A stretch of DNA of 64,000 nucleotides from Umbelopsis ramanniana AG. Its lineage: Eukaryota; Mucoromycota; Umbelopsidomycetes; Umbelopsidales; Umbelopsidaceae. Below are positions 1-4,548 of this stretch, piece after piece (within the stretch, counting starts at the first letter, position 1; each line of letters begins with the position of its first letter). Below the pieces are notes generated by a model. The model was not told where the DNA came from. It saw nothing but the letters and a program-made list of their open reading frames with translations, and did not search any database. The stretch covers positions 1 to 64,000 of the forward strand of contig NW_026252124.1 of the NCBI RefSeq assembly GCF_025399195.1. The letters run 5' to 3'. The translations under genes were made by a program, and so were the position numbers.

Positions 1-1128
1 ATGATGGAAGCGGCTGTCAAGCATCAAACGGGGATTCGACTTTACCGTGTTCATGATGATTTCTGGTTCTGGGACTCTCATCAAGACAAGGTAGTCCAAG
101 CATGGCGGGTGATGAACGAATATGCCAGCTTGACCAACCTCCGATTCAATGTTGCAAAGTCTGGTTCTGCTGTAATCAATAGCCAGGGCATGAGCAACAC
201 GTCTTCTATTGCATCATTTGGACCATCGCCTTTACCTCAAGCTAGAGTATGGTGGGGATCTCTGGTCTTCCGAGCGGACGGGCTTTTCCAAATTGACCAT
301 GCCTTAACAGAGCTTCATATTCAAGAGATGCGACAAAAGCTAAAGACCAGCAAGACGGTTCTCAGCTGGGTCAATGTATATAACAAGTACATCGCTTTCT
401 TCCTGCGAAGCTTTGGATCGTGTGCTAAGGTTCTGGGAACTCAACATTTAGACCAGATTGGTGAATGCATGCAGATGATTCAAAGACGAGTATTCCAGGA
501 GCAACACGGCAATGCTCTTTCTGCATTGAAGAAGCAGTTTGAGGTTTTCCAATCTACGGACATTCTAGACATGTGGGCATACTGGCCACTTCCAGCAGGA
601 GGACTCGGCATGAAGAACTATTTGATGGATATTGGAGCCCTAAGAGAGACATTCATCAAGGTAGAGCACACTGACTTTACAGATCTACCCAAGGAAGACA
701 AGGTGCTGTGGGAAGAGCAAGAGAAGAAAAAAGAGCAAAGTCGCAAGCAATTTCATATAACTATAAAGGACTTGCAAGATCCCTCCAATGTACGTTATAA
801 CCAAAGGCATTTATACTTCCCGTTGACATTTGCGATGTACTGTAAAGGACGAGAAAGGATGCATCGGCATTGGTCCCGTCGATTTCTCGAACTGTTGGAT
901 GTTGTTGAACTTGCACATCCAGTTCAACTGAGTGCCAGTGTAAATAATCAATTGAACAATCTACGGCTGGGTGATGCTAACGATATTACTACCGCTAAAC
1001 GTGTTGTTAGCCATTATGATAATCAGTTAGGCAAGGCTTGTGGAAGTTTGGAATTTTTGGACATGGCACTTATACCCAAGAGTTTAGTTCAGTCCCTGAA
1101 CAAAGCCAAGGTTCAGTGGGATGCATAA
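1..1128 (+). CDS. rvt-like reverse transcriptase, 3' part of upstream tandem copy (partial)
   Basis: This is the C-terminal 375 codons of a cellular reverse-transcriptase-like protein, open to the left window edge, so the true start lies outside. It aligns without any net length change to 3421-4548 of the next gene; both stretches are 1128 nt. RT motif C is visible as HDD followed by FWFWD near residues 25-32, and motif D-like NLRFN follows. The C-terminal domain after the palm is conserved with its neighbour (MWAYWPLPAGGLGMKNYLMD). There is no stop or frameshift in the visible part, so this looks like a second functional copy rather than a relic. Identity to the neighbour is uneven, nearly perfect in some blocks and low around 180-225. 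Known of the family: rvt genes encode RT-related proteins of unknown cellular role and are not ordinary retrotransposons. Confidence 0.8.
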   Translation: MMEAAVKHQTGIRLYRVHDDFWFWDSHQDKVVQAWRVMNEYASLTNLRFNVAKSGSAVINSQGMSNTSSIASFGPSPLPQARVWWGSLVFRADGLFQIDHALTELHIQEMRQKLKTSKTVLSWVNVYNKYIAFFLRSFGSCAKVLGTQHLDQIGECMQMIQRRVFQEQHGNALSALKKQFEVFQSTDILDMWAYWPLPAGGLGMKNYLMDIGALRETFIKVEHTDFTDLPKEDKVLWEEQEKKKEQSRKQFHITIKDLQDPSNVRYNQRHLYFPLTFAMYCKGRERMHRHWSRRFLELLDVVELAHPVQLSASVNNQLNNLRLGDANDITTAKRVVSHYDNQLGKACGSLEFLDMALIPKSLVQSLNKAKVQWDA

Positions 1129-1968
1129 ACGAAAGCAGTGCACTAGATCCAATTCTGTTTATAGATTTTGAAAATTACAATAAAAGATGTGTAAGCTTTA
1201 ATGATGAAGTTTATGAGTATAATGACCGCATAAAAAGTTTTAAAGGAAAGAGAGATAACCCATGTAATCATGCAATGATCTATTTTCAAAACGCCATTAG
1301 ATGAGTGTGGAGAGTTGGAGCTTAAAAAAACAAAATAAGCAACAAGCAAAGGACTTGAGCTGTACCATAAGAACGAAGCTAGAGAGGATCAAGTGCTAGG
1401 AGCTGGAAGGCGAGTGTCATGATATTTGAGTCAAAACATGAGAATGAAACGTACTAGCCAAAGCGTAATATCAAACGCAAGGTCCGTGACATATTGATGG
1501 GCTCAAAACTAAGTTACATTTGTCACATGCTGGCTGTAGAGGTCGTAGTTGTTTGGCAAGAGCTTTTTGTTGCAAAGTAACTATGTGGCAAAGTGTTTTA
1601 ACGATGCTGTGGACGCTTGAGCCAAAGCTGACGATAGTGTGACAACTCCACGATTCTGTCCAATGGTGGTGGCAAAGTATTTGATGCCGCAGTACTTTAG
1701 TATCGTAAACCCATCATCCTGCATAAGCGATCGACTTTTGTCCACTTTATCTGCTACATTTTTGTAAATGAAAGCAGAAGATTGCCCATAGCTTACGTTT
1801 TCAGACCTATACTCGTTACTGTCGTCAGCATGGTTGATGATTGAAAAGGTATGGTAGATGTCACATCTACTATCGCTTGTATAACCTTTTTTCTATTTTT
1901 TTTTTTAGCACACTATAAAAGCAGTAAATTTTGAGGGCGGTTGTTAATGATAAAATACTCTTTTAACC
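1129..1968. other. intergenic spacer between tandem RT copies
   Basis: About 840 bp without a supportable gene; the small ORFs here have no recognisable protein and no splice context. It carries the 3' flank of the first RT copy and the promoter of the second, including a T-rich run and a TATA-like box just before the second gene. I see no terminal repeat, RNase H or endonuclease remnant that would mark a transposon boundary. Confidence 0.6.
1914..1920 (+). promoter_or_regulatory. TATA-like box upstream of the RT gene
   Basis: TATAAAA about 49 nt before the ATG at 1969 and just after a poly-T tract. Its spacing fits a core promoter, which supports transcription of the second RT copy from its own promoter rather than by read-through from the first. 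Confidence 0.45.
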
Positions 1969-4548
1969 ATGATGCATAACGAAGCCAAAAGTGCAAGCAA
2001 GTCCTCTCTCAACCAGGTCCTCTATGAGGTGACTAGCGAGAAAATCATGGAGCTTCAAAGACAAAAGGATGTCTTGAGCCGCCATTACAGTGATGTACTG
2101 AAAACTGCAGATGCTAGTGACGACTTGATTCAAGAGATTGAAATACTGTATCAAGGTATCAAGGAGGCTCCAGTTCAACACAAACAAAATTTGAATATGG
2201 AGAGTGCTCGACTCTTCATTGGGAGCGTAGCTAAGGATCCATCTACTAGTGAACAACTCTTACGCCATTGGATTGCCAGTTTTCGAAAAGAGATACAATA
2301 CTCGACCTGCAAATGTACATACACATACATGTATGGAAAGCGTTTACGCGATGAATTATCTGAAGCTGAAACCTCTGCTCTAGATGATGAGTTTCATGCA
2401 GTGTCAAAAAAAAGGAAGGAGCAGATAACAGAGCGTGAAAAGACAATCAAGGAACTTGAAAAGCGTGTGTTTGAAGCTGGACAAATCAATTCGGACGCTT
2501 TCAAGGCTTTTCTGGACAAGACTTTGGACATGGGAGAAGTGAAGATCAAGAAAGTGCTGGATACTGCAAGAATGAACACTGGGTTGTTCTGTAAGAAGCT
2601 GCTTGAAGACGACATTACTGTGTCTGGGCTGAAAACCTGTGTGGAAGGATTATTGGGATGTGATTTGCTCAACGCCGAGAAGCAAACTACTTTAAGGCAG
2701 TTGATGGAAAGCGAGCCGTATCTTCAAGATCTTGCGACACTTCTATCCAGTCGAATCAAGGCGGTCAAGTACTGGAACTGGCCTGAGAAAGGAGTTCATG
2801 TGGATGTTCGACGATCAATAGCAGGAAGATATCGAGCTTTTCTTGATGAAGACATTATTACGGCACTTTTCCTTCAGTATATCGGAGCACAATTTGCAAT
2901 TCACATGAAAGGTGAATTGAGAAAAATGTTTATCATGATATATGAACCTTTTGCGAACCACACCCGAAAGCTGCCACGTCGAACTATGAGTATTGAGGAA
3001 TTGCGATGTAATATCCACTTGGAAAGTTTCCTCTCTGTACTTCCTAGCGGGATGCAAAACCAAGCCCAGTTCTCGTATGAGGATAATGGAAATTCTAAAA
3101 ATACCACTGCGAATACCAAGAATTCACTCATTCATCTCCTTGCTACAGAAGCTCAACTTCACAAGGTGATCAAGCCTGACCAGCCATTTACCGTAGTCCG
3201 CACTGACATGGAATGGTTCGGACCGTCTATTGAGCATGAGTCGATCAAGATTGTACTTCAGTTCCTTGGAGTGACTGATGTATGGGTTGATTTTATGATG
3301 CGGTTCTTGAACGTACCAATGACGTTCCAAAAGGATGTGAGTGAGGATGTCCGCATCCGGCGAAGAGGAGTACCAATCTCACACCAGCTGTCTGCTCTAT
3401 TTGGTGAATGTATCCTATTCATGATGGAAGCGGCTGTCAAGCATCAAACGGGGATTCGACTTTACCGTGTTCATGATGATTTCTGGTTCTGGGACTCTCA
3501 TCAAGACAAGGTAGTTCAAGCATGGCGGGTGATGAACGAGTATGCCAGCTTGACCAACCTCCGATTTAATGCTGAAAAATCTGGCTCTGCTGTGATCAAT
3601 GGTCAGGATAATAGCATATTGTTGTCAACTGCGTCGTTTGGACCATTGCCTTTACCTCAAGCTCGAGTATGGTGGGGATTTCTTGTCTTTCGGGAAGATG
3701 GACTTTTTCAAATTGATCATGCTCTGATTGAGCCTCATATTGAAGAGATGCGACAGAAGTTACAAAGCAGTAAGACGGTACTCAGCTGGGTTAACGTATA
3801 TAACAAGTACATATCTTTCTTCATGCAAGGCTTTGGATCGTGTGCCAAGGTCCTAGGGACGCAACATTTAGACCAGATTGGTAAATGCATGCAGATGATT
3901 CAAAGACGAGTATTTCATGAGCAAAACGGCAATGCTCTTGCTGCGTTGAAGAAGCAGTTTGAGGTTTTCCAATCTACGGATATGCTAGACATGTGGGCAT
4001 ACTGGCCACTTCCAGCAGGAGGACTCGGCATGAAGAACTATTTGATGGATATTGGAGCCTTAAGAGAGACATTCATCAAGGTAGAGCACACTGACTTTAC
4101 AGATCTACCCAAGGAAGACAAGGTGCTGTGGGAAGAGCAAGAGAAGAAAAAAGAGGAGAACCGCAAGAACTTGCAATTAAGTATCAGGGACTTGCAAGAT
4201 CCCTCTAATGCACGTTATAACCAAAGGTATTTCTTATTACCGCAGACATTTGTGACGTACTGTAGTGGAAGAGAAACGTTACATCGACATTGGAGACTTC
4301 GATTTCTCGTGCTGTTGGATATTGTTGACCTTGCACATCCAGTTGAATTGAATGCCAATGTAAATACTCAACTGAACAATCTACAGTTGGGTGATGTTAA
4401 CGATGTTATTACTGCTAAACGTGTTGTTAGCCATTATAACAATCAGTTAGGCAAGGCTTGTGGAACTTTAGAGTTCTTGGATATGGCCCTTATCCCCAAA
4501 AGTTTAGTGCAAACCCTGAACAAAGCCAAGGTACAGTGGGATGCGTGA
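1969..4548 (+). CDS. rvt-family cellular reverse transcriptase-related protein, 859 aa, intronless
   Basis: Single open frame of 859 residues starting at the first ATG after a TATA-like box. The N-terminal third is charged and helical with coiled-coil potential (about residues 15-60 and 140-170). RT palm motifs follow in order: motif A TDMEWFGPS with Asp about 413, motif B-like RRRGVPISHQL about 464-474, motif C HDDFWFWD with Asp 503-504, motif D-like NLRFN. The three catalytic aspartates are present. The long region between N-terminus and motif A and the conserved C-terminal extension match the rvt family of fungi and other eukaryotes, domesticated RT-like genes without endonuclease or RNase H. 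It is intronless although most neighbours are intron-rich. Telomerase is unlikely: no TERT RNA-binding or TEN motifs are seen. Biochemical role unknown. Confidence 0.82.
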   Translation: MMHNEAKSASKSSLNQVLYEVTSEKIMELQRQKDVLSRHYSDVLKTADASDDLIQEIEILYQGIKEAPVQHKQNLNMESARLFIGSVAKDPSTSEQLLRHWIASFRKEIQYSTCKCTYTYMYGKRLRDELSEAETSALDDEFHAVSKKRKEQITEREKTIKELEKRVFEAGQINSDAFKAFLDKTLDMGEVKIKKVLDTARMNTGLFCKKLLEDDITVSGLKTCVEGLLGCDLLNAEKQTTLRQLMESEPYLQDLATLLSSRIKAVKYWNWPEKGVHVDVRRSIAGRYRAFLDEDIITALFLQYIGAQFAIHMKGELRKMFIMIYEPFANHTRKLPRRTMSIEELRCNIHLESFLSVLPSGMQNQAQFSYEDNGNSKNTTANTKNSLIHLLATEAQLHKVIKPDQPFTVVRTDMEWFGPSIEHESIKIVLQFLGVTDVWVDFMMRFLNVPMTFQKDVSEDVRIRRRGVPISHQLSALFGECILFMMEAAVKHQTGIRLYRVHDDFWFWDSHQDKVVQAWRVMNEYASLTNLRFNAEKSGSAVINGQDNSILLSTASFGPLPLPQARVWWGFLVFREDGLFQIDHALIEPHIEEMRQKLQSSKTVLSWVNVYNKYISFFMQGFGSCAKVLGTQHLDQIGKCMQMIQRRVFHEQNGNALAALKKQFEVFQSTDMLDMWAYWPLPAGGLGMKNYLMDIGALRETFIKVEHTDFTDLPKEDKVLWEEQEKKKEENRKNLQLSIRDLQDPSNARYNQRYFLLPQTFVTYCSGRETLHRHWRLRFLVLLDIVDLAHPVELNANVNTQLNNLQLGDVNDVITAKRVVSHYNNQLGKACGTLEFLDMALIPKSLVQTLNKAKVQWDA

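Follow-up and report, generated by a model that had tools for sequence, protein, structure and literature searches.

Tandem rvt genes in Umbelopsis: a probable old duplication with proposed patches of gene conversion

The fungal genus Umbelopsis comprises soil saprotrophs, and one contig of Umbelopsis ramanniana AG (NW_026252124.1), whose first 64,000 nt are analyzed here as "the window," begins with two adjacent genes of the rvt family. These are cellular genes related to reverse transcriptases (RTs), and little is known so far about what RVT does. Our analysis indicates that the two tandem rvt genes probably derive from an old head-to-tail duplication, that both have apparently been kept open under selection, and that patches of one have probably been converted to match the other. 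This is an unusual arrangement within a known family and not a new kind of system: what is new is that a family known for single-copy genes here has a tandem pair that is apparently intact and probably partly converted. No literature title or opening of an abstract in our survey was concerned with tandem rvt genes; the founding rvt paper lay outside that scope, and an earlier notice of multi-copy rvts is possible.

The window starts at the first base of its contig (here C38), which belongs to an assembly of 22.8 Mb in 123 contigs. An earlier note made from the sequence had described two RT-like genes lying head-to-tail 840 bp apart and open over a shared 1,128 nt, and these coordinates and counts proved right (Table 1). 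Both genes are on the plus strand. The upstream gene (copy 1) is represented in the window by 375 codons with no internal stop, whereas the downstream gene (copy 2) is complete. The shared 375 codons align without gaps, with identities of 87.9% (DNA) and 83.7% (protein). The ATG with which the window opens encodes an internal methionine, equivalent to residue 485 of copy 2, and the copy 1 frame begins at window base 1 because the contig begins there. The window contains no N, and a single contig runs unbroken from the 3' part of copy 1 through the spacer and copy 2.

The 5' part of copy 1 was located elsewhere in the assembly. When the assembly was searched with the 859-aa protein, three places matched. 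Two are copy 2 itself and the copy 1 fragment, and the third is a piece on another contig (C79:3-1265, minus strand) that aligns to copy 2 residues 1-423 with 77% identity and has no stop, giving 421 open codons. The final 95 nt of this piece are identical to window positions 3145-3239 and the initial 95 nt of C38 to 3421-3515, and mismatches begin immediately beyond 95 nt at both contig ends. Copy 2 has 181 nt between the two 95-nt stretches, and 1,265 + 181 + 1,125 nt amounts to 857 codons in frame. Given these matching ends and the in-frame total, the simplest reading of the sequences is that the two pieces form one gene that was split at an unresolved repeat, in the presumed order C79 piece, copy 1 fragment, copy 2. 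The two 95-nt ends would fit a putative assembler word of 96, which we take to be the word used by AllPaths-LG. A contig break inside such a tandem pair can hide one copy.

The earlier note had also called both copies apparently intact, a view that a disabling mutation outside the window could have overturned. The C79 piece is open, and the two copy 1 pieces together keep all 46 of the scorable family-conserved residues (13 of 59 are without data). Therefore, we rejected a pseudogene, and intactness stands for the pieces that were located while being presumed for the 181 nt between them. Constraint, another of the note's proposals, was borne out by the ratio of nonsynonymous to synonymous divergence (dN/dS) between the copies, which is 0.246 over 796 codons with a synonymous divergence (dS) of 0.45. 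This pairwise value supports purifying selection.

In contrast, the claim that the duplication is recent did not survive. Outside the tract that is identical between the copies, the N-terminal part has a dS of 0.62 (the proportion of differing synonymous sites, pS, is 0.42) and the C-terminal part a dS of 0.37, with a dN/dS of 0.24 in each. BLASTN between the copies found that homology ends 12 nt 5' of the start and 13 nt 3' of the stop, and when the 840-bp spacer was compared with 10 kb of C79, only the 12 nt adjoining the start codon matched. Trees were built from 11 of the 17 proteins in our first alignment (A1, also used for the structure model and first profile): P0002 to P0012 were included, P0001 is copy 2 itself, P0013 to P0017 were judged too distant, and P0030 and P0032 were added later. 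Over residues 1-385, copy 1 groups with U. vinacea P0004 (INT44_007763; support 86/91) and copy 2 with P0003, P0005, and P0010 (support 96/97). A second U. vinacea gene, P0030 (INT44_007761), falls in the copy 2 lineage (support 95/97). The 5' parts of the two copies thus fall in different lineages. Because both lineages occur in U. vinacea, they predate the split from that species, and their adjacency probably does too. Two rvt genes are also suggested for U. vinacea by its locus tags and by the equal lengths of the contigs bearing P0004 and P0030, and for U. ramanniana among the listed relatives, again by contigs of equal length. P0030 is annotated at 412 aa and ends just after the HDD motif, near where the identical tract of the window ends; it is either a broken gene or a mis-modeled one.

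The relationship between the copies changes along their length. They differ at 370 of 2,388 compared positions, yet the tract around the catalytic motifs is identical over the 190 nt observed and presumably over 371 nt. The longest run of codons without silent change spans 56 codons in the observed parts of 393-515, a length reached in 3 of 100,000 shuffles; codon 392 carries one silent difference and lies outside the unchanged tract. The 62 observed unchanged codons hold 37.5 synonymous sites, and the chance of zero changes at the silent divergence seen elsewhere is about 4e-8, a value to be read with the tract having been picked post hoc. A second such run (codons 699-733; P = 0.03) overlaps a 171-nt stretch with a single difference.

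The trees conflict in the same manner. Over residues 517-859, copy 1 groups with copy 2 (support 98/98), and approximately unbiased (AU) tests rejected both the pairing of copy 1 with copy 2 in the N-terminal part (p = 0.0017) and that of copy 1 with P0004/P0002 in the C-terminal part (p = 0.00033). Identity to U. vinacea P0004 is 93% for the C79 piece and 76% for the 3' part of copy 1. At 117 diagnostic sites, where P0002 and P0004 agree and copy 2 differs, the P0004 state prevails in copy 1 over residues 1-400 (56 of 60 sites) and is found there at all 8 sites of residues 561-640. In residues 481-560, by contrast, 5 of 9 sites of copy 1 carry the copy 2 state. Residues 641-859 are mixed, with 21 of 40 sites in the copy 2 state, 8 in the P0004 state, and 11 in neither. 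Given this patchy identity and the grouping of the 3' parts, gene conversion between the copies is the best explanation that the sequences offer, and it accounts for the high local identity better than a recent duplication does. Comparison with relatives at the protein level within the tract left the direction of transfer undecided, and part of the mosaic could also stem from unequal exchange or from a third copy that is missing here.

Several observations weigh against this history. The AU-tested groups were chosen with the identities already known, the node joining copy 1 to P0004 is moderately supported (86/91, and 84/93 in the enlarged tree), and relatives were compared as protein sequences. 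Regarding the split gene, the middle 181 nt of copy 1 are inferred, and no read joining C79 to C38 was seen. The 95-nt signature was absent at three other contig ends (two in longer repeats and one in unique sequence), and positions 4061-4155, within the gene, form another identical stretch of just this length, so the number can arise by chance. Furthermore, the 11 of 123 contigs compared for length run in size order down to the last, C123, at 14,092 bp, which leaves room for a smaller, missing contig that bears a further copy.

This last point bears on an alternative that we regard as unlikely, in which the array has at least three copies. The C79 piece would then come from a full gene of the copy 1 5' type, whose 3' part would lie on a missing small contig together with the 5' part of the gene whose 3' end is at 1128, and the mosaic would be partly an artifact. 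The drop from 93% to 76% identity with P0004 and the position of the boundary within a repeat, which permits extra units, are compatible with such an array. However, three protein queries recovered no extra copy beyond a weak 83-residue match on contig C12 (E = 0.0125, 34% identity), and the P0004 state at 8 of 8 sites in residues 561-640 is what would be expected if the same gene continues. An improbable alternative is that strong constraint on the catalytic core, and not conversion, keeps the tract identical. The core is indeed conserved between species, with copy 2 being 94-96% identical in protein to P0002 to P0004 within the tract, but the silent sites are unchanged as well and the tree conflict falls outside it.

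Recent duplication would account for the near-identical stretches and the adjacency of the genes, but we rejected it and consider it very improbable in view of the dS of the 5' part, flanks that cannot be aligned beyond 12 to 13 nt, and the two lineages in U. vinacea. We give still less credence to an assembly artifact, in which haplotypes or a collapsed repeat would make one gene look like two. The contig does break in the middle of copy 1, but the number of differences between the copies and the continuity of the 3' part of copy 1, spacer, and copy 2 without any N oppose such an origin.

The proposal in the earlier note that the gene is of the rvt type is supported by homology, predicted fold, and motifs. 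Lists of relatives are lower bounds, and among the matches listed there are full-length relatives in at least Umbelopsis, other early-diverging fungi, an ascomycete, oomycetes, a springtail, and bdelloid rotifers, the nearest being Umbelopsis proteins. The name rvt appears on none of the records of these relatives. However, P0028 of Adineta vaga and P0026 of Rotaria are 32% identical to copy 2 over 81% and 90% of its length, respectively, and we infer from PMC3520738 that they correspond to the bdelloid rvts already described. The Umbelopsis genes share with the known rvt genes (Neurospora crassa RVT and the bdelloid and bacterial rvts) a long N-terminal helical part, an insert before motif A, and homology to bdelloid and many fungal proteins along most of their length. 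No relative was recovered by scans of prokaryote genomes with six patterns and with one pattern, and because so few patterns were used, the unrecovered bacterial branch says little.

The AlphaFold2 model of copy 2 has a predicted RT fold whose nearest neighbors in the fold lists are R2 and LINE-1. As the earlier note had reported, HDD is present in both copies and all three catalytic aspartates (D413, D503, and D504) are found in copy 2, a motif A aspartate and motif C DD pattern that is again shared with rvt genes; the aspartate in the D413 column of copy 1 lies on the C79 piece. In alignment A2, which holds 24 of 34 collected proteins, D503 and D504 are kept in all 24 rows, and the D413 column has D in 21, with E, E, and V in P0014, P0015, and P0017. 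These three are similar rows from Diaporthe that have D two places after this column, reflecting either an alignment slip or a different motif A. Residues 326-385 are an insert before motif A that includes low-confidence stretches of the model (327-338 and 369-377, by predicted local distance difference test, pLDDT) and is possibly the rvt loop 2a described in PMC5718144.

Domain profiles were less informative. Copy 2 had no Pfam match at E values up to 1, with no endonuclease seen, and the copy 1 fragment had one weak, below-cutoff match to SH3b_P2. Neither copy is among the 28 RVT_1 matches in the assembly, and RVT_1 matches in the six relatives scanned were all below the cutoff, although P0016 and P0025 bear a precomputed PF00078 label. 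A sequence search of solved structures returned eight rows, one of which is RT-like (E = 0.45).

Other RT-bearing systems fit less well. R2 and LINE-1, which are non-long-terminal-repeat retrotransposons, form interspersed families and differ from copy 2 by the endonuclease that was not seen there; we rejected an element of this type because the three assembly matches are the two tandem genes. Two copies, host-type neighbors, and homology that stops at the coding ends mark the pair as non-mobile, low-copy genes, and low copy number and ordinary neighbors are likewise typical of rvt genes. TERT shares the RT fold and is a cellular gene, but the first telomerase row is at rank 32 in the Foldseek list, below R2/LINE-1. 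Spliceosome rows, whose RT-like chain we take to be Prp8, are also below R2/LINE-1. PMC12440569 counts two cellular RT genes in eukaryotes, TERT and RVT, and PMC10680173 and PMC3520738 describe rvt genes as single-copy; in PMC4920403, RVT denotes retrotransposon genes. The Umbelopsis genes differ by being two in tandem with patchy identity. In our view, a single copy per genome is a reported habit of the family and not a criterion for membership, and the pair departs from that habit. Since U. vinacea has both lineages and U. ramanniana has two genes as well, the pair suggests that rvt copy number can rise and persist.

The following history is proposed. An ancestral rvt gene would have been duplicated head-to-tail before the source species split from U. 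vinacea, after which both copies would have stayed open under purifying selection. Gene conversion would then have overwritten patches of one copy onto the other, most recently across catalytic motifs A to C, and this converted tract may also have caused the assembly break that separates the 5' half of copy 1, on C79, from the rest. By analogy with studied rvts, each protein would be a non-mobile polymerase that forms multimers and combines an N-terminal helical part with RT fingers, palm, and thumb and with loop 2a. Each would add nucleotides without a template, would be induced on translation inhibition or amino acid shortage, and would need its catalytic aspartates for stress relief. Bacterial rvts reportedly show protein priming and multimerization. 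The likely function of both proteins, on this analogy, is stress-induced, non-templated nucleotide polymerization. According to PMC10680173, rvt genes aid bacteria, fungi, and rotifers under amino acid starvation or certain antibiotics, rvts polymerize without a template, and intact catalytic residues are required for this.

Divergence between the copies is not uniform. It peaks in residues 321-400, with a proportion of differing nonsynonymous sites (pN) of 0.22-0.44 (0.44 for 321-360), and in residues 721-800, with a pN of 0.16-0.19 and a windowed dN/dS of 0.67-1.08; these windows hold few synonymous sites and the values are no test of positive selection. Judging from these differences, it is in these two regions that the functions of the proteins could diverge. 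Under conversion, the catalytic core would stay alike, while loop 2a and residues 721-800 would be freer to differ. It is conceivable, if doubtful, that the genes form a long-kept two-gene rvt system in which conversion holds the core alike and these outer parts diverge, the two acting together, for example as a mixed multimer that has two specificities in the stress response. The pair offers a natural comparison in which a shared core is joined to differing loop 2a and C-terminal parts.

Table 1. Features of the tandem rvt locus in window coordinates
Feature	Position	Strand	Remarks
Copy 1 (upstream), 3' part	1..1128	+	Equivalent to residues 485-859 of copy 2 plus stop; contig start cuts the 5' side
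Copy 1 stretch identical to 3421-3515	1..95	+	First mismatch at base 96
HDD motif, copy 1	52..60	+	Sequence and alignment-column check
Copy 1 second near-identical tract	565..735	+	Pairs with 3985-4155; 1 difference in 171 nt
Spacer (840 bp), including presumed promoter region of copy 2	1129..1968	+	
TATAAAAG	1914..1921	+	55 bp 5' of copy 2 ATG
Copy 2 (downstream), intact rvt-type gene	1969..4548	+	Single open frame, 859 codons (859 aa)
Copy 2 N-terminal all-helical part, residues 13-264	2005..2760	+	AlphaFold2 model
Copy 2 gap-rich, fast-evolving insert before motif A, residues 326-385	2944..3123	+	Alignment, pLDDT, and pN
Tract identical between copies	3145..3515	+	3145-3239 seen against C79 and 3421-3515 against window 1-95; middle 181 nt presumed
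D413, motif A aspartate, copy 2	3205..3207	+	Near end of predicted strand 407-414; column check
H502-D503-D504, motif C, copy 2	3472..3480	+	Column check
Copy 2 second near-identical tract	3985..4155	+	Pairs with 565-735

Upstream of the genes, the counterpart of TATAAAAG in copy 1 is TATAAATA at -56. A TGASTCA sequence, presumably a Gcn4/AP-1 type site, occurs at 1427-1433 (-542 from the copy 2 start), and none is present within 1 kb upstream of copy 1. Because the 64 kb contain six such sites, we gave the -542 site no weight. Of the four neighboring frames scanned, all but one, which had no match, have host-type domains (OB_NTP_bind, mitochondrial carrier, and class I tRNA synthetase). At its right end, C38 runs into repeated DNA that has matches at 13 other places in the assembly.

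Some relatives have features of their own. P0005 and P0010 of U. ramanniana represent a further diverged rvt paralog with YDD in place of HDD, and P0010 deviates at 6 of 54 scorable family-conserved residues. P0031 and P0032, on contigs of 1,886,436 bp, are C- and N-terminal rvt halves predicted as two proteins and are perhaps a split or broken gene. Finally, the relatives P0011 (from the springtail Orchesella dallaii, on a 4.8-Mb contig) and P0012 are of note, and a springtail protein is 35% identical to the Umbelopsis rvts. Among the matches listed, oomycete and ascomycete proteins fall below it at 26-27%, and horizontal transfer of the springtail gene from an early-diverging fungus is a possibility.
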